A stretch of 64,000 bases of DNA from Spirosoma aerolatum (GTDB lineage Bacteria; Bacteroidota; Bacteroidia; Cytophagales; Spirosomataceae): NCBI RefSeq assembly GCF_002056795.1, contig NZ_CP020104.1, positions 4,845,501 through 4,909,500 on the forward strand. Direction: 5' to 3'. Positions 8,519 to 64,000 of this stretch are shown here, piece by piece (positions within the stretch are counted from its first letter, which is position 1; each line of letters opens with the position of its first letter). The notes under the pieces were generated by a model that was not told where the DNA came from, made no database searches, and was given only the letters and a program-made list of their open reading frames with translations. Both the position numbers and the translations under genes were made by a program.

Positions 8519-9712
8519 ATGAAATATCCACTCTATATTGTTCTTATAGTTTTAGGCTTAACTCCTTCTCACCTAAAGGCACAAGCTCGTATCAGTGCCT
8601 ATTGGGGATTTTCGTTGCCTGTTGCCAAAAAGCATGAATTGAAAGGCAATGTTAAAACAATTACTCAGACGCAGTCCCCTGTCACGAATAAACCCGCCGA
8701 TTGGCTCGACGGCTATTCAGGTCAGAACTATTCAGAAGAATACAACAAGCAGGGTTATCTGGAAAAACGTACTTCCTTCGACGATTATAATAAACCACAG
8801 GTAGCTACTCATTACGCGTATAGATCCATCGGAGAAATTAGCGCCATTTGGGACGAAGTTTTAGCCCAAAAATCGAGAATGCCTCTTTCCGAAGGTCGTG
8901 TTAGCTATGAATTTAATCCAACTAGCAAGCTCTATATAATTCGGGATAAACGAATCATTGGAGGAGTTCCCCGGAATACTCGGACGGAGATGCAGATGGA
9001 TTCCGCAAACCGGGTTGCCATAAAACGTACCTATAAACAGGATACACTGCTGATAGAAGATGAACGTTATACCTGGGATAAGCCGGGATATTTGACGGAG
9101 CATATCATACGCAGGCGGAAGCAAGTTAACGAAATGCCCAAACTCGGTCAGGCAGAGCTTGACGCATTCATGGATGAAATAACCAGTAATCTTTCCGAGG
9201 ACGAAAAAGCAGCCTTCAAAGCAGAAGCGGCCAAAGGAAAAGTCCAATTGAAAAATCGGGAAGATAGTCTTAAACGTGTAGAAGATAGTTTATATGCCCT
9301 TCAGCCAGAATGGTCTGTCGATACAACGGTATATCGAAATCAATACGACAATCAATCCAGACTACTTAGGCAAGCATCTTATAAACAGAATCGATTGACA
9401 GAGGTATTTAGTTTTAGTTACACCCCAGAAGCTACTCATAGGGTAGTTCAATATTATGATCGATCTGGCAATTTAATTAACGAGACTAAGAGTCGTCAGC
9501 ATCCTGTAGAGGGCTACATATTATCTGACGTTTCGCGAAATAATCATGCCGGAAAATGGGAGGAACGTGTATTTGACTATACCAACATAACCAAACCGAT
9601 TTACCAGTACCAATACGATACACATAGCAACTGGATCGAACGAAGACAGGTTGATGCTACTGGTAAACAAATTGGCAGCGCCTTAGTCCGTAAGATCGAG
9701 TATTATCCATAA
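8519..9712 (+). CDS. secreted hypothetical protein
   Basis: A 397-residue protein with a signal peptide (residues 1-22, cleaved after LKAQ). The mature part is rich in short beta-type segments with tyrosine and charged residues, such as YKQDTLLIEDERYTWDK and YQYQYDTHSNWIERRQ, a pattern like the repeat strands of secreted or lipoprotein beta-sheet proteins with YD/RHS-like character, but no family is assigned. A charged helical stretch (about 215-265) interrupts it. It follows the FAD protein by 8 bp and precedes the Nudix gene by 13 bp. Function unknown. Confidence 0.7.
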   Translation: MKYPLYIVLIVLGLTPSHLKAQARISAYWGFSLPVAKKHELKGNVKTITQTQSPVTNKPADWLDGYSGQNYSEEYNKQGYLEKRTSFDDYNKPQVATHYAYRSIGEISAIWDEVLAQKSRMPLSEGRVSYEFNPTSKLYIIRDKRIIGGVPRNTRTEMQMDSANRVAIKRTYKQDTLLIEDERYTWDKPGYLTEHIIRRRKQVNEMPKLGQAELDAFMDEITSNLSEDEKAAFKAEAAKGKVQLKNREDSLKRVEDSLYALQPEWSVDTTVYRNQYDNQSRLLRQASYKQNRLTEVFSFSYTPEATHRVVQYYDRSGNLINETKSRQHPVEGYILSDVSRNNHAGKWEERVFDYTNITKPIYQYQYDTHSNWIERRQVDATGKQIGSALVRKIEYYP

Positions 9713-9725
9713 AAATTCCGCCCGA

Positions 9726-10355
9726 ATGTTACAAACCTCGTTCAACGCTTTTACCGAAAACCTCCAGCAACGGTTACAGCAACCGTTGCCCGGTGAGGCT
9801 GCGCACCAGAAAATGGCGTCGGCAGCGCGGTATCGGCTGGGTATCAAACCCAACGAGCGGACACGTCGGAGTGCGGTCCTGATTTGTTTCTATCCTTTTC
9901 AGAACTCCATTTATTTACCGCTCATTCTTCGCCCTCAGTACGATGGCGTTCATGCCGGGCAAATGGCCTTTCCGGGTGGTCGCATGGAGCGATTCGATGA
10001 GAATCTGACCCGTACCGCCTTACGCGAATCGCAGGAAGAGGTTGGTATTCGGGTGTCGGATGTGAAGGTACTCGGCCTGCTCACGGAGCTATTCATTCCA
10101 CCCAGCAATTTTTACGTACAGCCTGTGGTGGGTGTACTCCCCTACCGCCCTGACTTCTACCCCGACCCTCGTGAGGTAGAAGCCATCGTTGAAGTTGATC
10201 TGGAAACCTTGCTCGACGAAACCATCGTAGGCGATAGCCAGATCGAAGTACGGGGCGTACTGGTCGATGCGCCATTCTACCAGATTCAGGGGCACCGGGT
10301 ATGGGGGGCTACCGCCATGATGATCAGCGAATTGTTGATGCTGCTGGATGCTTAA
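9726..10355 (+). CDS. CoA pyrophosphatase-type Nudix hydrolase (NudL-like)
   Basis: A 209-residue Nudix hydrolase. The Nudix box begins at GGRMERFDENL and continues to ALRESQEEVGI (roughly residues 84-108), matching GX5EX7REX2EEXG. The upstream stretch LPLILRPQYDGVHAGQMAFPGGR fits the UPF0035 motif of the CoA-diphosphatase subgroup, which hydrolyses CoA or its derivatives to 4'-phosphopantetheine and 3',5'-ADP. The specificity is by family only. It ends three bases from the stop of the convergent tolC-like gene, leaving no room for a separate terminator. Confidence 0.85.
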   Translation: MLQTSFNAFTENLQQRLQQPLPGEAAHQKMASAARYRLGIKPNERTRRSAVLICFYPFQNSIYLPLILRPQYDGVHAGQMAFPGGRMERFDENLTRTALRESQEEVGIRVSDVKVLGLLTELFIPPSNFYVQPVVGVLPYRPDFYPDPREVEAIVEVDLETLLDETIVGDSQIEVRGVLVDAPFYQIQGHRVWGATAMMISELLMLLDA

Positions 10356-10358
10356 ACT

Positions 10359-11792
10359 CTATTGACTGGTACCGGCTACATAATACAGCTCCGCAATCGC
10401 TTTCTGGTATTTCGTTTTCAGTTCTTCTCCTTTTATTCGTAAATCAATCAGCTTGGTTTCGCGGGAATTAACCAGAAACAGAGAACTTTCCCCAATGTCG
10501 AACTTTTGCTGTTCAGCCTGAAGAAGTCGTTGCTGGTTCTGAACAGCCTGTTGCTGTACAATCACCTGTCCGGCCAGAGCCTGAAGCTGATTATAGGCCG
10601 CCTGAACGGTGTTTGTAATGTCCCGATTAGTCTGTTGTCGTTCTAAGGCCACCTGCTGATTTTTCACCTGAACTTCCCGCAGTTTACCCCGCTCTTTCCG
10701 AAGAAATAAAGGAAATACTACGTCCAACCCAATTTTATGATTCTGTGGGCGGAACGAGTAATAATCGCTCCAATCGTAGGGAACATCGACCGTAGGCGTC
10801 TGACTCAACAGGCTGGCACTGACCGTGATCTGTGGCTGTACCATCGCTCGCCTAAACTGCTCCTCAATCGTGAGCTGTTGCGCCTTGGCCGCCAGCTTCA
10901 GCAATTCAGGGTGCTGCTGAGTGGCCCGATTCAGGAGTGCCTGAAGCGTATCGGCTGAGTAAGTGGTTAGCGGAGCCTGCTGTGGTATAGCTGACACAGG
11001 TAACTCGGCGGGTTGCCCCCGTTCGTTCCATAAAAAGGTGCTCACCCTGAGCCGGGCGTTTTGCTCCTCAAGTTCTGCCTGCTGGCGCTGCACCAGTCGA
11101 TCCTGTGCCGTTATCAGCGCTTCTGTCGTATCAATTATGGCGGCATCGCCTATCAAAGCCCGCTCGCGTAAGGCCCGAAAACGTAAATCGGCCAGTTCAT
11201 ACCCTTCTACCAGTAACCTACGCTGTTGATACGCCAGAAACCACTCCCAGTATGATTTGGCCGCATCGAAAAGCGTTTTGTTGACCAGTTTCAGCCGATC
11301 GGCTTCGGCCAGATTTACGGCCAGACGCGCCTGTCGCACGGCCGAACGTCGGGCATCAATACTGATCGTTCTGCCGATTGGCAAACTCAGACCGATTCCG
11401 GCAAGGCCAGACGATGGAGTTCTTTCGGCCGGGTTAATATATTGACCTGCATTCTGGTCATAGGAGGCATTCAAATCAATCCCCGCCCACCATAATGGCA
11501 CTAACAGTTTATTTTGCCAGTGATTGTAATAGAGGGTATTACCAAACTCTTTCCGGTCGTAGCTCGAGGCCAATTTCGGATCGAACGCCCCTCGTGCCTG
11601 CATTACGACCTGCTTTGCTTCTTCGCCAAACAATCCGGCCTGTTTGATAATTGGGTGGTTGGCCCGAATCAATTCGAAGAATAATTCAGCCGTAAAAACG
11701 GTGGTATCGGTCGGGCTAGCCAATGACTGGGCCGACACCCTCCCCACCAGAATTCCTAATCCGCAAAGGAATAACGCTGTCAACCGCTTCAT
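10359..11792 (-). CDS. TolC family outer membrane efflux protein
   Basis: A 477-residue outer-membrane factor with signal peptide (MKRLTALFLCGLGILVGRVSAQ, residues 1-22) and the long coiled-coil helices of the OEP family in two halves, for example KLVNKTLFDAAKSYWEWFLA and the glutamine-rich helix around 395-430. It would form the outer-membrane channel of a tripartite exporter. Its start overlaps the stop of the HlyD-type gene by four bases (ATGA), so the two are translationally coupled, and the ABC membrane subunit gene lies just upstream. Confidence 0.9.
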   Translation of the reverse strand: MKRLTALFLCGLGILVGRVSAQSLASPTDTTVFTAELFFELIRANHPIIKQAGLFGEEAKQVVMQARGAFDPKLASSYDRKEFGNTLYYNHWQNKLLVPLWWAGIDLNASYDQNAGQYINPAERTPSSGLAGIGLSLPIGRTISIDARRSAVRQARLAVNLAEADRLKLVNKTLFDAAKSYWEWFLAYQQRRLLVEGYELADLRFRALRERALIGDAAIIDTTEALITAQDRLVQRQQAELEEQNARLRVSTFLWNERGQPAELPVSAIPQQAPLTTYSADTLQALLNRATQQHPELLKLAAKAQQLTIEEQFRRAMVQPQITVSASLLSQTPTVDVPYDWSDYYSFRPQNHKIGLDVVFPLFLRKERGKLREVQVKNQQVALERQQTNRDITNTVQAAYNQLQALAGQVIVQQQAVQNQQRLLQAEQQKFDIGESSLFLVNSRETKLIDLRIKGEELKTKYQKAIAELYYVAGTSQ

Positions 11793-59067: not shown

Positions 59068-60231
59068 ATGAAAACGATTTCCCTCTATTCAACGCTGTTG
59101 CTTTTAAGTGGATCTATTTGCTCGAGTCTTCCTTCAGCGCGGGCAACTACTGTAAACATCGTTCACACCTTTAGCACTGATTCCCTTCGTATTGAGAAAA
59201 AAGATGGAAAGCGGTTTATCGTACACCGGGTCGATGAAGGGCAAACACTTTACGCGATTTCCCGAAAATACAAACGATCAGTTGCCGAGATTAAAGCCGC
59301 CAATCCCGAAATGAAAGACGCTGTTCGCTACGATCAGCTTATTCTGATTCCGGTTCCCGACGGAACGCTGAGCCGAAAAGAAGAAAAGGTCATTGATAAA
59401 GCGATAAAAAAACAGGAAAAAGAAGCCAAACGAGAAGCCCGCGAGCGAGAGAAAGAAACAGAAAAAGTTACAGAAGCAAAACCCGTAGCCAAAGCGGAAA
59501 AAATCCCTGAAAAAGAAGTCAAAAAATCAGACGATCCGGCTCAGTCGGGCATCCACGTCGTTGAAGCAGGGCAAACCCTGTATAGCCTTGCGAATCGATA
59601 TGGCGTATCGCAGGCCGATATTCGCAAATGGAACAACCTGCCCGGCAATAATGTACTCATCGGCCAGCCACTGATTGTTTCGGAAAAAGCGTATCAGGAC
59701 CGTACCCCATCCAATTCGGTAGTCACCACCAAATCGCCTGATGCGCCAAGCCGCCCAACACCCGCTCATCCGGTCGATACAAACACCAATGAGTCGCGCC
59801 CCCACGAGTCCCGCCCTACTCCTCACACTGAACCCAAATCAGACCACCGAAACGAAAACGATACACCTACCCGTCCGTCGGCAACCGGAACGAAGCCTTC
59901 CGAACCCGAGCCGGAACCGCCCCGTCCAGGCAACGACGCCCCCATGCCAACCCAGGGCCGTCGCATTTCATCAAGTGGTGTTGCCGAAATGATTGAAGGT
60001 ACCGATGGATCAGGTAAATACCTTGCCCTGCACCGCACTGCCCCTATTGGAACGCTGGTACAGGTCCGAAACGAGTTCAATAATCAAAGCTTATGGGTAA
60101 AAGTCATTGGGCGGCTACCCAATACCGGGATTAACGACAAGATTCTGATTAAGCTCTCAAGTCAGGCTTTCGCGAAACTTTCGCCCGAGGATCGGCGTTT
60201 TCGGGCAGAGGTAAGTTATATAGTGCGATAA
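59068..60231 (+). CDS. two-LysM protein with RlpA-like double-psi beta-barrel
   Basis: A 387-residue exported protein from ATG 59068 (the TTG at 59050 is also in frame). After the signal peptide (about 1-24) comes a first LysM (HRVDEGQTLYAISRKYKRS), a highly charged Lys/Glu helix of about 70 residues, a second LysM (HVVEAGQTLYSLANRYGVSQ), a long Pro/Ser/Thr-rich linker, and a C-terminal domain (YLALHRTAPIGTLVQVRNEF, KVIGRLPNTGINDKILIKLS) like the double-psi beta-barrel of RlpA. It should bind peptidoglycan in the periplasm; the aspartate needed for lytic activity was not identified, so it may be a scaffold. It starts a three-gene operon. Confidence 0.88.
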   Translation: MKTISLYSTLLLLSGSICSSLPSARATTVNIVHTFSTDSLRIEKKDGKRFIVHRVDEGQTLYAISRKYKRSVAEIKAANPEMKDAVRYDQLILIPVPDGTLSRKEEKVIDKAIKKQEKEAKREAREREKETEKVTEAKPVAKAEKIPEKEVKKSDDPAQSGIHVVEAGQTLYSLANRYGVSQADIRKWNNLPGNNVLIGQPLIVSEKAYQDRTPSNSVVTTKSPDAPSRPTPAHPVDTNTNESRPHESRPTPHTEPKSDHRNENDTPTRPSATGTKPSEPEPEPPRPGNDAPMPTQGRRISSSGVAEMIEGTDGSGKYLALHRTAPIGTLVQVRNEFNNQSLWVKVIGRLPNTGINDKILIKLSSQAFAKLSPEDRRFRAEVSYIVR

Positions 60232-60234
60232 GTT

Positions 60235-60447
60235 ATGGAAACTAAAGAAGAAAGGATTGCCCGAAGACACCGGGAGCGCGATGAGGAGATGAAAGCTTCG
60301 CCCGGCTACATCACCTTCAGTATTATGTTTACCCTGGCCTATCCATTCATTGCCGTTTTTACCTTTGTCATGTCTACTCTACTGGCTATCTTTTCTGGCA
60401 TTTCACGTGCCTTAGCCTGGATTGTTAGTGGTGGAAAAAGTAAATGA
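60235..60447 (+). CDS. small membrane protein
   Basis: A 70-residue protein with a charged N-terminal helix (KEERIARRHRERDEEMK) and one long or two short hydrophobic segments between residues 24 and 62 (TFSIMFTLAYPFIAVFTFVM, LAIFSGISRALAWIVSGG). It starts 3 bp after the LysM gene and its stop overlaps the next gene's ATG (ATGA), so it is translated from the same transcript. No family is recognised. Confidence 0.78.
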   Translation: METKEERIARRHRERDEEMKASPGYITFSIMFTLAYPFIAVFTFVMSTLLAIFSGISRALAWIVSGGKSK

Positions 60448-61238
60448 GCCCCGTCAATTTTTCGTCCATAAAGATTTTTTTAGATGCAAAGGCCGATCAA
60501 TACAATCGGCCTTCGTTCATTGAGCGCGATCCGATCAGCATCCCCCATCGATTCAGCCAGAAGCAGGATATTGAAATCATGGGATTCTGGGCGGCCGTCC
60601 TGGCCTGGGGACAACGCCCCGTAATTCTGAAAAAATCGGCTGAACTTGTTGACCTCATGGACGGCGCACCTTACGATTTCATTCGGAATCATCAGGAGAG
60701 TGATCTAAAGCGTTTTCTATCATTCAAACACCGCACGTTCAACCCAACCGATGCTCTCTATTTCCTTCACTTTTTCCGCCAATATTACCAGCAGCACGAG
60801 TCGCTGGAAGATGCTTTTTTGCCGGATAAGGCCGTTCAATCAGATACAACCCCAACCGTCGAAACAGGTCTGATTGCCTTTCACGACCATTTTTGTGGCC
60901 TTACCGACTTTTTCCCCGAGCGTACCCGGAAGCACATTGCCACACCAATCCGCAACTCATCCTGCAAGCGGCTTCTCATGTTTCTGCGCTGGATGGTTCG
61001 TCATGACGATCGGGGGGTTGATTTTGGTTTATGGCCCCGTATCCGACCTGAGCAGCTGGTAATTCCTATTGATGTACATGTTAACCGGGTAGCCCGCCAA
61101 TTAGGGTTGCTGATCCGCCCGCAAACCGACTGGAAAGCCGCTTTGGAACTGACCGAAACCCTTCGTCAATTCGACCCATCGGACCCCGTCCGCTACGATT
61201 TTGCCCTGTTTGGTCTCGGCGTTGAAGGCGAAATGTAA
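60444..61238 (+). CDS. TIGR02757 (DUF2400) family protein
   Basis: A 264-residue protein of the TIGR02757 family, with KADQYNRPSFIERDPISIPH, IMGFWAAVLAWGQRP and the C-terminal IDVHVNRVARQLGLL followed by RQFDPSDPVRYDFALFGLG. The fold appears helical and related to the HhH-GPD DNA glycosylases, but the function is not established. ATG 60444 overlaps the stop of the small membrane protein gene. Confidence 0.9.
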   Translation: MSPVNFSSIKIFLDAKADQYNRPSFIERDPISIPHRFSQKQDIEIMGFWAAVLAWGQRPVILKKSAELVDLMDGAPYDFIRNHQESDLKRFLSFKHRTFNPTDALYFLHFFRQYYQQHESLEDAFLPDKAVQSDTTPTVETGLIAFHDHFCGLTDFFPERTRKHIATPIRNSSCKRLLMFLRWMVRHDDRGVDFGLWPRIRPEQLVIPIDVHVNRVARQLGLLIRPQTDWKAALELTETLRQFDPSDPVRYDFALFGLGVEGEM

Positions 61239-61360
61239 ACCCTATAGCCGATCTACCTACCTTTATTCCAATTCTCATTTTTTGTTGGGATTAATAAAGG
61301 TTAATAAACAAACATTGGCCAAAACGGATTACCCAAATACGAACTTGTCACACGAACAGG

Positions 61361-62410
61361 ATGCCATTTCAGATCACTACCCAACCATTTGGCCCTCTAC
61401 CGACGGGCAGTACTCCACTTACCGAATACATGCTTGAACACACCGAAACCGGTGAATTCATTACGGTAATACCAGAATTTGGTGCAATTCTGCGTCGATT
61501 AGTCCTTCGAAAAGGCGATCATCTGTTCGCACTGATTCAGGCCCCGGAATCCCCTCAGGCGCTACTGGCCGACGAAAGCTATGCCAGTGCATTCCTGTAT
61601 CCTTTTGCCAGCCGGATTCGACATGGCATTTACCAGTTTGACGGGACCGACTATGCCGTAAAAATGAACGAAGTTCACCGCGACAATGCTATACACGGTT
61701 TTGTTCATGGGCGTCCTTTCACGGTGGTCAATGAAGAAGTGACCTCAACGCATGCTCAACTAGTTCTTCGCTATTCGTATGAGGGTGATACATTCGGCTA
61801 TCCATTTCCCTTCGTCCTGACCGTTACATACCAATTGACTCAGGCAAATCGGCTCCTGCACGGCAGCAACCCCGCCAGCGATCGAATGTGTGCGCTGAAA
61901 ATCAGCTACACGGCCCAGAATACGGGAACAACGCGGGCCCCCGCTGCCTTCGGATGGCACCCCTATTTTACATTTACCGAAGACGCTGAACGAACGGCTG
62001 AGTTTGTTGACGGAATGACACTCGCATTGCCAGGCCGAACCGCTATTGTACTCGACGACCACCTGATTCCTGTCAGTCATTACCCATTTCAGCCTGCCGA
62101 AGTCATCGACCTCCACAAACGTCAGTTAGATACGCCATTTCTGATCACGCCAACCAGCCTGCCAACCGACAGTGAGTCTTTCGCTGAAACCATTCTAACG
62201 TCAGGAGAAACAGGGGCACGGCTAATTGTTGGACAACAAACCGGCGAAGGGAAACTGAATTACCTAGTATGCTATACTCCACCCCGACGCGACAGTATTG
62301 CCATTGAACCTCAAACGGCTAATGTAAATGCGTTCAACAATGGTGAAGGTTTAGCCGTTCTCTCTCCTGGCGACACGCTTTCCGGTACCATCTGGGTGCG
62401 ACTGGATTAG
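61361..62410 (+). CDS. aldose 1-epimerase family protein
   Basis: A 349-residue mutarotase-like protein. The active-site landmarks are FASRIRHGIYQFDG, NEVHRDNAIHGFVHGRPF (His112) and AAFGWHPYFTF, which place it in the aldose 1-epimerase superfamily that interconverts alpha and beta sugar anomers. No signal peptide is seen, so it is cytoplasmic. It is the last ordinary gene before the repeat region. Confidence 0.9.
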   Translation: MPFQITTQPFGPLPTGSTPLTEYMLEHTETGEFITVIPEFGAILRRLVLRKGDHLFALIQAPESPQALLADESYASAFLYPFASRIRHGIYQFDGTDYAVKMNEVHRDNAIHGFVHGRPFTVVNEEVTSTHAQLVLRYSYEGDTFGYPFPFVLTVTYQLTQANRLLHGSNPASDRMCALKISYTAQNTGTTRAPAAFGWHPYFTFTEDAERTAEFVDGMTLALPGRTAIVLDDHLIPVSHYPFQPAEVIDLHKRQLDTPFLITPTSLPTDSESFAETILTSGETGARLIVGQQTGEGKLNYLVCYTPPRRDSIAIEPQTANVNAFNNGEGLAVLSPGDTLSGTIWVRLD

Positions 62411-62449
62411 ATTATCGGCCGAAAAAGTATCCTGCGTCACCGGGAAGAA

Positions 62450-62850
62450 TAGCAGCGCGGAGCGAATCACTAATGCACACATCCGCTTTTCAGACTGGCG
62501 CGAAGCTTATCGCTACGTTTGTCAAGCTCACCGATTAGTGGTTAATTTGTCGAACGCTACGTCCCTAACTCGCTTTTGGCTTCCAAACCGGGGCGACTCT
62601 CGCGTCGCATGCGGCCCAACTCCGGCGTTTCTCGTGTCAGCCGAGGCTGGCCAACAAACCGAAAAACTTCCCTAACGAGCCGTGCAGCTTGTCACACACT
62701 AGACCTGACCGCTACGTTATTGGCTGTTTGGTCCACCCAACGACCGCGAGGGCTGATGGATGATGGAGCTAATCACCTGAACACTCGTACCTGCTACCTT
62801 TACACCCTTTCTCGGTTGGGCTGCTTTGGTGGACCTTGCGGCCTGCATCC
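62450..62850. repeat. left part of diverged structured repeat array (blocks X, C, A)
   Basis: Non-coding region made of three blocks that recur on the right of the NADAR gene. Block X (about 62450-62566; ATCCGCTT, GCGCGAAGC, CTACGT) matches 63725-63846. Block C (62567-62680; AACTCGCTTTT, ACCGGGGCG, CCCAACTCCGGCGTTT at 62615) matches 63847-63974. Block A (62681-62850; ACCCAACGACC, GGTTGGGCTGC, GCATCCTGTCGC) matches 63543-63712. Conservation is patchy, about two thirds by eye, so the copies are old. Small hairpins such as CTCG-tgtcagc-CGAG recur. Confidence 0.85.
62735..62821. other. attC-like 87-bp element A1
   Basis: Begins ACCCAAC (RYYYAAC) and ends GTTGGGC (GTTRRRY), the outer boxes of integron attC sites, with inner complementarity CGAG/CTCG. 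The same-length element A2 at 63591 has a better inner stem. In contrast to true attC sites, the sequence on the right of the GTTGGGC box is conserved between copies, so a simple integron boundary is doubtful. Confidence 0.4.
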
Positions 62851-62878
62851 TGTCGCACGAAAGCCACCCATGCGGAGC

Positions 62879-63436
62879 TTACTTTTTAAGCAAGTCTCGT
62901 ACTTCCATCAGAGCAAAGCCCAGCAAATTTAATCCGTTCCACCGCTTAGGATTCTCAGCCTTGTCGCTGTCAGCCGCCAGACCAATACCCCAAATTTTGT
63001 CTACCGGACTGGCTTCAACTAATACTCTCTCTTTGGTTTTGACCAAGAACTCTTTAAGGTCTTGATGTTGAGTGAATTTCTGTAGACTGCCCTCAACTAC
63101 GATCTCAAAGCGTTTGCTGTTCCAAATGGCTTCATCAAAGTTATGAACTTGCCTACCAAGTGTTTTGGCTTCGGCTGGCGATTTGGCAACGATGATTTTT
63201 TCATAAACTTCTTGGTCACCAAATAGCAAGGCTTTTTGGGCCATCATCCAATGCTCTGCCGTGTTGTATTTGACCTTGTCAACGATAAACGGTGATGTCC
63301 ACCACTGGCTAAAACAAGACGCTATCAAATCACCAGTTTTACTTTTCTGATGCCCCCAAAAGAACAAGTATTTAATTCGTCTCCCTCGTTCAAAATTTTC
63401 TATCAGCCACTCTAAACTGTATGTCATTTCAGTCAT
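62879..63436 (-). CDS. NADAR family protein (apparent cargo gene)
   Basis: A 185-residue protein from ATG 63436 (MTEMTYSLEWL); an upstream ATG at 63523 is in frame but would read through repeat sequence. It has the NADAR/YbiA fold: YLFFWGHQ, CFSQWWTSPF, NTAEHWMMAQKALLFGD and the terminal GLNLLGFALMEVRDLLKK. The family cleaves N-glycosidic bonds, and members remove ADP-ribose from nucleic acids or act in riboflavin and NAD metabolism; some oppose ADP-ribosylating toxins or phage factors. The gene is AT-richer than its flanks and fills, almost without spare bases, an interval bounded by TGTCGCACGAAA (62851) and TGTCGACCGAAA (63495). Confidence 0.9.
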   Translation of the reverse strand: MTEMTYSLEWLIENFERGRRIKYLFFWGHQKSKTGDLIASCFSQWWTSPFIVDKVKYNTAEHWMMAQKALLFGDQEVYEKIIVAKSPAEAKTLGRQVHNFDEAIWNSKRFEIVVEGSLQKFTQHQDLKEFLVKTKERVLVEASPVDKIWGIGLAADSDKAENPKRWNGLNLLGFALMEVRDLLKK

Positions 63437-63494
63437 TTTCTTGTCACGCGGAACCCAGCTTTGATGTTGGCTTGGTCTATACAGGTGTCCATTT

Positions 63495-64000
63495 TGTCGA
63501 CCGAAACTCAGAGATGGAAGCAAAATGCTGCCTCACGGGACGTGCAATCTGTCGCCGAGACGCTGGCAATTAAGTACTGCTTTGGCCTGCACCCAACGAC
63601 CACAGGGGCTGATGGCTCCAGAAGTTGCTTGAAACCACGAACGTAGTGCCTGCCTTTACACCCCTGTTTGGTTGGGCTGCCTTAGCTTCCCAACCGGCGA
63701 GCATCCTGTCGCTGGAACGGTGACAGGCGCGAAGCGGGCAAAACGCACGAAATCCGCTTAAAGACCAGCGTGAAGCCTCACACTACGTATCTGCTTTTTG
63801 TCAGGCTTCCTTTTGGAGCGGTTGGCTTGTCACAAAGAACATAGCAAACTCGCTTTTAGCTGACCTCACCGGGGCGCTCCTCGTGTCGACCGAGACCCGA
63901 AAGGCCACCCAACTCCGGCGTTTGTGCTGTCGACAGAAAGCCGCCGAACGAACCAAACAGTCGGCCTTCGGGACGCGCTCACTGTCGCACGACACTGACC
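63495..64000. repeat. right part of diverged structured repeat array, continuing past the edge
   Basis: Order: tail of a C block (63495-63542, TGTCGACCGAAA to CGGGACG), block A (63543-63712), block X (about 63725-63846), block C (63847-63974) and the start of another A. In both C copies TGTCGAC and CGGGACG are exactly 41 bp apart (63495/63536 and 63928/63969), which fixes the alignment. The unit without cargo is 433 bp. It continues to the right of the window. Confidence 0.85.
63591..63677. other. attC-like 87-bp element A2
   Basis: ACCCAAC (63591-63597) and GTTGGGC (63671-63677) form the outer stem; ACAGGGG and CCCCTGT form a perfect 7-bp inner stem, separated by unpaired GACC and TTG. This outer box, unpaired spacer, inner box geometry is that of folded integron attC sites. 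Length is identical to A1. Confidence 0.45.

Follow-up and report, generated by a model that had tools for sequence, protein, structure and literature searches.

The NADAR Cassette and Its Flanking Repeats

Near the right edge of a 64-kb window (the whole stretch analysed, G000:C1:4845501-4909500 of the single-contig, 8.0-Mb genome of Spirosoma aerolatum) a NADAR gene lies among diverged non-coding repeats. In this study, we examined this region, in which an integron-like array of cassettes very probably has its distal end, with an integrase devoid of the IntI-specific insert and with five attI-like platforms. The NADAR gene (62879..63523, - strand) is a 214-amino acid (aa) open reading frame (ORF) from a TTG, and its product passes the PF08719 threshold (193.6 bits, cut-off 35.1), in line with its naming in a previous sequence-only reading; it also matches the PADLOC candidate family PDC-M42C (154 bits). 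An ATG at 63436 (185 aa) is probably the likelier start, since relatives begin near there: among 25 matches found in other genomes, the alignment opens at residue 25-37 in 24 and at residue 78 in one. Together with its leader and its site the gene makes up cassette 22 (62741..63596, - strand, 856 bp), the most distal full cassette, which runs from the TT of the R' box at 63596 to the G at 62741, between the R' boxes of two successive attC-like sites. The site of the NADAR cassette spans 62731..62825 (- strand; R'' 62815-62821, R' 62735-62741; 85.6 bits, E 7.3e-18) and that of cassette 21 spans 63587..63681 (- strand; R'' 63671-63677, R' 63591-63597; 87.6 bits, E 2.5e-18). They are not a product of chance: these are the two matches in the window, at E≤1, of our site model, which was trained with both among its members but, when applied to 20 loci from other genomes, also recovers 108 sites, spread over 17 of them.

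The repeated blocks that the sequence-only reading had placed on either side of the gene are real, diverged copies: a 68-nt pair (62794/63650, 74%) and a 26-nt pair (62734/63590, 88%), both spaced by 856, the length of the NADAR cassette. The gene is also AT-richer than the repeats, as had been noted, with a GC content of 0.43 against 0.54 and 0.57 in the flanking 500-bp bins. A unit of about 433 bp, likewise proposed, does exist as cassette 21 (63597..64031, - strand, 435 bp, passing the window edge at 64000), which holds no recognised gene and one 64-aa ORF through its leader; yet the NADAR gene does not interrupt such a unit. Nor has it replaced one block and part of another, given that its cassette has its own, shorter leader (63437..63596, - strand, 160 nt), with the GACA motifs common to cassette leaders. 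The imperfect direct repeats TGTCGCACGAAA (62851..62862) and TGTCGACCGAAA (63495..63506), once taken for the borders of an insertion, are present but are copies of a recurring GACA motif (- strand reading), the left one ahead of an R'' box and the right one in the cassette leader; the boundaries displayed by the array itself are the R' boxes 62735-62741 and 63591-63597. Beyond the last site, a leader-like tail (62411..62740, - strand), the distal remnant of the array, adjoins an ORF at 61361-62410. ARAGORN found no tRNA in the window, Rfam gave a sub-threshold match only over 60000-64000 (RF03131, E 0.59), and Tandem Repeats Finder listed nothing in the region, the repeat copies being too diverged. 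Outside this array, 11 of the 25 NADAR matches were inspected with 1.5-kb flanks, and attC-like sites were seen near one only (L202, in G029), where one of the sites lies 57 nt past the stop.

An Array of 22 Cassettes

The non-coding block 62411-62878 has 28 genomic matches, itself included, most of them within 4907911-4930311 and the others at four further loci. On the - strand of that stretch genes and sites alternate, and 22 attC-like sites bound 22 cassettes over 22.4 kb, with the NADAR cassette distal-most. The suspicion of a cassette-capture array running off the window edge was well founded, and the pattern named beforehand as its support, many units carrying different short genes at the same point, is seen; the repeats go on for 21 kb beyond the window. 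The kind of array, for which no name had been offered, can be named as integron-like, given its attC-like and attI-like sites and its tyrosine integrase. As in integrons, the cassettes are in tandem, mostly single-ORF, and on the same strand: by our reading 16 of the 22 have at least one gene on the integrase strand; in the other six (1, 6, 8, 10, 16, and 21) no gene was recognised. Cassettes 8 and 21 carry 64-65-aa ORFs through the leader (cassette 8 also a 38-codon ORF), and transposase-like ORFs enlarge cassettes 9 and 18, the former with an opposite-strand ORF as well. Family searches, which covered the cassette proteins other than g11 (4920211-4920696), recognised NADAR, three PDDEXK_2 proteins, a DUF4595 protein, a lipocalin-like protein, a Sel1/TPR-like protein (below the cut-offs), and one protein with weak TIR and deoxyribosyltransferase matches; many of the proteins searched match no family. 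The PDDEXK_2 nuclease-family genes stand as three separate cassettes of one array (L021:4129-5013, 9298-10161, and 10842-11714). A GACA(A/G)G motif lies about 32 nt ahead of R'' in all 22 sites, in the fuller form GACAGGnnGCACG in 15 of them, and related motifs recur in the leaders; these account for the blocks and "direct repeats" described previously. The sequence TAnnTTTG, which we take to be the Bacteroidetes-type -7 box, occurs near the starts of 4 of 16 genes (1.1 expected; 10 of 500 shuffles as high), and because some copies fall inside genes we do not claim cassette promoters.

Architecture of the attC-Like Sites

In a pattern scan the sites are mostly 85-88 nt long, with a few shorter, follow the scheme GCCCAAC-CAAA-TGAGGGTGT ... 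CATCAACCCTCA-TGGTC-GTTGGGT, and are positioned after genes. Their parts are R'' (GCCCAAC), L'', L', and R' (GTTGGGT), in canonical orientation relative to the gene. The box consensus of attC sites is RYYYAAC for R'' and GTTRRRY for R', and the Spirosoma sites display this R''-L''-L'-R' architecture along with covarying stems. Among 25 sites from four clusters the R boxes are near-invariant, and the L stem varies with compensation, its pairs changing on both sides in up to 11 of the 25 sequences. Both-sided stem changes fill 42 cells, compared with 14.5 in shuffles (0 of 500 as high), a signal abolished by sliding the partner, and the covariation score is 0.298 versus 0.146 after shuffling (reached by 0 of 500). 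Two more measures do not rise above shuffles, namely the pairs with any both-sided change (192 of 500 as high) and further pair types (146 of 500). The unpaired spacers are asymmetric (3 vs 4 and 5 vs 4 nt). By eye, no cassette-specific R'/R'' matches are seen in the S. aerolatum genome, since its boxes are uniform. The same architecture with different stems accompanies integrases 42-44% identical to this one (L091 and L092). Inside the first of these arrays (L091:10140-12160, reverse-complemented locus) a transposase-like ORF, presumably IS91-like, has a second tyrosine recombinase as its neighbour.

An Integrase without the IntI Insert

At the array end opposite NADAR lies a tyrosine recombinase gene (G000:C1:4930974-4932221, - strand), 21.5 kb to the right of the window, within which the sequence-only reading had rightly seen no integrase. 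Its product matches PF00589 (137 bits) and TIGR02249 (177 bits, below the cut-off of 265); nothing in this genome passes the latter cut-off, and the best match of the genome sits exactly at the array end. As in integrons, a tyrosine recombinase adjoins the array. The catalytic domain is closest to XerA in both sequence and fold (best PDB match 5hxy). The IntI-specific insert of about 41 residues (the additional domain around patch III) is absent, as seen from a gap in the alignment: GKGxKDR and HxLRH are 59 residues apart in this integrase, 59-64 in its family where readable, and 100 in true IntIs. In the tree the 13 IntI rows form a single group (100/100) and the insert-less family falls outside it (94/86 in the full tree), the branching order between the two being not firmly resolved. 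The integrase is codirectional with the cassettes, unlike the divergent intI of integrons. The UvsW, XPB, and HARP proteins carry branched-DNA binding domains, and the integrase has an extra N-terminal domain whose predicted fold, tentatively UvsW/XPB-like, may resemble these.

An 82-aa ORF is convergent with the integrase gene and overlaps its stop (L022:10251-10499, + strand; G000:C1:4930751-4930999). A search of 79 loci finds it conserved in 24, which represent 22 distinct places and belong without exception to the Spirosoma-family clade, and its product is possibly an accessory factor or regulator. Other integrase relatives include two from Paenibacillaceae (L035:12026-12355 and L036; 35 and 32% identity over near full length), both about 1 kb from contig ends, with L035 ending in a 52-bp tandem repeat. 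Recombinases of Bradyrhizobium plasmids and of a Sphingomonas plasmid match the catalytic part at 37-40%, without the N-terminal domain; in the Sphingomonas record an IS91 family transposase lies beneath the match.

attI-Like Sites and Dispersed Platforms

About 365 nt past the integrase stop we found an attI-like site, GCGTACAATACTATG^TTGGGTG (4930587-4930608), whose G^TT marks the apparent insertion point; a comparable site is present in 16 of 24 loci with ≤5 changes, nine of them with ≤1. The 22-mer occurs exactly five times in the genome at ≤3 mismatches (control 0), once at the head of each cassette cluster, and across the genus in 34 of 36 genomes, this one included (96 copies; control 2). 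The four secondary clusters of S. aerolatum (L023, L024, L025, and L026) are each headed by such a site of their own, and no integrase was noticed beside them, as far as they were inspected. Of 20 further platforms from seven genomes, hand-chosen away from known integrases, 19 have sites after them within 4 kb, and all 41 of these lie on the platform's strand. Upstream of the core an inverted repeat is found whose arms vary between platforms and tend to match each other (48 cells with both-sided changes, shuffled mean 18.7, 0 of 500 as high). It is perfect over 22 bp at the main attI-like site and poor in at least 4 of 25 platforms (best score 3-5 in L026, L024, L229, and L235); the mean pairing is 9.1, compared with 6.5 when arms are swapped.

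A relative, G114, carries the same pair of 254-bp cassettes at three platforms. Counted from the core, the three are identical for 529 bp, up to a point immediately past the TTGGGTG R' box, an exact right-hand junction, and the cassette's own R' and R'' (TTGTACG/CGTACAA) are complementary. On the left, the third platform departs from the others beyond 25 nt. The first two share all but one base of the 60 nt compared, and either may therefore have been copied from the other. We regard these identical cassettes as the best sign of mobility.

Conservation across Relatives

The sites are not peculiar to this genome. Among 150 family genomes the integrase (E<1e-85) occurs in 30, sites in 35, and both in 25 (Fisher p 8.9e-16); that integrase cut was chosen after viewing the match list, and at E≤1e-60 the count becomes 25 of 38. 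At the 17 of 20 integrase loci with sites, all 108 matches lie downstream on the integrase strand, and the loci of S. sordidisoli, F. aquatilis, and F. forsythiae have the same downstream pairing, both Fibrella loci being among the 20. Sites were not found at L088 and L090, for which 17 kb was read and whose genomes bear sites at other places, at L093, whose contig ends after 0.7 kb, or in the 10 kb upstream of the integrase at L031-L033.

Integrase relatives (E≤1e-45) are present in 151 of 345 genomes of the class. For a survey, 40 loci were picked for long contigs, and the integrase ORF was obtained from 39. By eye, attC-like arrays are present at L116, L117, L183, L192, and L194, and the ends of their cassettes are complementary to the R'' of the same cassette. 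In a chain test, symmetric in strand and run on 37 loci of ≥2.5 kb each (28 from the survey and 9 earlier), two or more links were found downstream in 13 loci and upstream in one (L181), with shuffled means of 0 to 0.85. The other 24 stay below this mark, among them two known arrays (L083 and L092); the Spirosoma array L083 scores 0 links, which reflects its near-uniform R' and R'' boxes. Thus, to judge from the sequences, insert-less integrases with cassette arrays occur again in other families. A de novo hairpin detector proved too insensitive (1 match in the clear array L116) and was excluded from the counts.

In 10 of the 40 surveyed loci (L163, L164, L168, L171, L174, L176, L177, L179, L182, and L195) the contig stops no more than about 1.3 kb past the integrase on its downstream side, as though the assembly had broken at a repeat array, a count biased by the choice of loci. 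A Chryseobacterium sp. SNU WT5 plasmid (L242; NZ_CP041688.1, 9031-19017) encodes an integrase relative whose annotation reads "site-specific tyrosine recombinase/integron integrase"; the genes behind it are mostly codirectional, and an IS110 and a group II intron lie there too. Its chain test gives 0 links, and some intergenic junctions are attC-like by eye.

Alternative Explanations

Could the cassettes and sites stem from a canonical IntI that worked in trans or has since disappeared, leaving a cluster of attC sites lacking integron-integrases (CALIN) with the insert-less recombinase as a bystander? CALINs are reported to be commoner in Bacteria than integrons with intI (PMC9668308), and 10 of the 35 site-bearing genomes have no integrase match at E≤1e-60. 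Nevertheless, besides the failure of any match in the genome to pass the TIGR02249 cut-off and the position of the best one at the array end, the pairing and strand are kept across genera, mostly with the attI-like site. Across the phylum, matches that exceed the IntI cut-off occur in 105 of 395 genomes; of the matched genomes listed under the same order (G198) or class (G186, G237, and G459) only G186 has one, with at most five candidates scored per genome, and G237 and G459 carry insert-less integrases. We therefore consider this origin improbable. Slightly less probable still is a Xer/dif-type module system, for which pdif modules are the model, where XerC/XerD-like enzymes would recombine short dif-like sites as double strands and the hairpins would be incidental. 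The XerA-like catalytic domain and the short attI-like core would suit it, and so would the minimum-energy single-strand DNA folds of the two window sites, which are no better than those of shuffles and weigh against an integron-like system. Conversely, sites of this length, two-stemmed, covarying, with asymmetric unpaired spacers, and one ending each cassette, are not what such modules predict. Finally, decayed repeats of another kind (a broken repetitive protein gene or a REP-type (repetitive extragenic palindromic) element) with genes between them by chance, a possibility that the sequence-only reading had itself raised along with repeats confined to this place, would suit the diverged copies and the several cassettes without a recognisable gene but are scarcely credible, as the stems covary as non-coding structure, the sites keep a regular place after genes in a single orientation, a recombinase and an attI-like site stand at the array end, and the same design recurs at five places in this genome and in many others.

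Proposed Mechanism and Implications

Judged by its anatomy, the system is integron-like, not a canonical integron, and a variant with dispersed platforms. We propose that a tyrosine recombinase of the XerA/IntI kind would insert circular cassettes at the attI-like site, cutting G^TT of the R' box, and would also excise cassettes between two attC-like sites. This would have produced the 22 cassettes in their row, which mostly hold a single gene and whose reading direction leads away from the integrase. Structured attC DNA, presumably single-stranded, would be held by the N-terminal UvsW/XPB/HARP-like domain in place of the IntI insert, and the one integrase may serve in trans the four more attI-like platforms elsewhere on the chromosome. 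Conceivably, the GACA motifs could act as arm-type sites for the N-terminal domain. More speculatively, and with more doubt than confidence, the Bacteroidia may hold a second widespread integron lineage, in which an insert-less integrase reads folded attC via an N-terminal branched-DNA domain, with a small convergent partner protein in the Spirosoma family, and in Spirosoma stocks several scattered attI platforms.

If confirmed, this would be an overlooked branch of the bacterial gene-capture machinery. Integrons have been detected in Bacteroidota, and the origins of CALINs treated (PMC8618304). Should insert-less integrases indeed work on attC arrays in many families, complete integrons would be under-counted, an integrase may have gone unrecognised for some of the "orphan" attC clusters, and attC recognition would have more than one solution. 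A genome with several attI-like platforms would also be unusual in how it stores cassettes. Among the papers listed, judged by title or abstract start, none deals with integrons in Spirosoma or with insert-less integrases, and novelty is provisional to that extent.

Comparison with Known Systems

With canonical integrons the Spirosoma system shares a tyrosine recombinase, an adjoining attI-like site, attC boxes in canonical orientation to the gene, and cassettes of one strand that mostly hold a single gene and in some cases no ORF. It differs in that its integrase, whose gene points towards the array, lacks the IntI additional domain and carries an N-terminal one, and in having several attI-like platforms per genome and shared non-coding leaders in the cassettes. 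A "reverse" intI orientation is one with the integrase on the cassette strand. Spirochaetota integrons have intI in this reverse orientation (PMC9668308); integrase and cassettes are thus on the same strand in both systems, whereas the spirochaetal enzymes are typed as IntI, with the additional domain. That domain serves as both definition and search handle for integrons, and IntegronFinder requires both profiles (PMC9668308); this two-profile rule would be expected to miss the Spirosoma integrase, and we do not class the array as an integron, since our test for the IntI domain showed it to be absent. The four secondary clusters resemble CALINs in bearing sites with no integrase noticed alongside; in contrast, a conserved attI-like site stands at the start of each, and the genome encodes a matching integrase at another place. 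The XerA/XerCD enzymes with their dif modules are the nearest in catalytic domain, by sequence and by fold; the Spirosoma enzyme departs from them in its extra N-terminal domain and its association with attC-like arrays.
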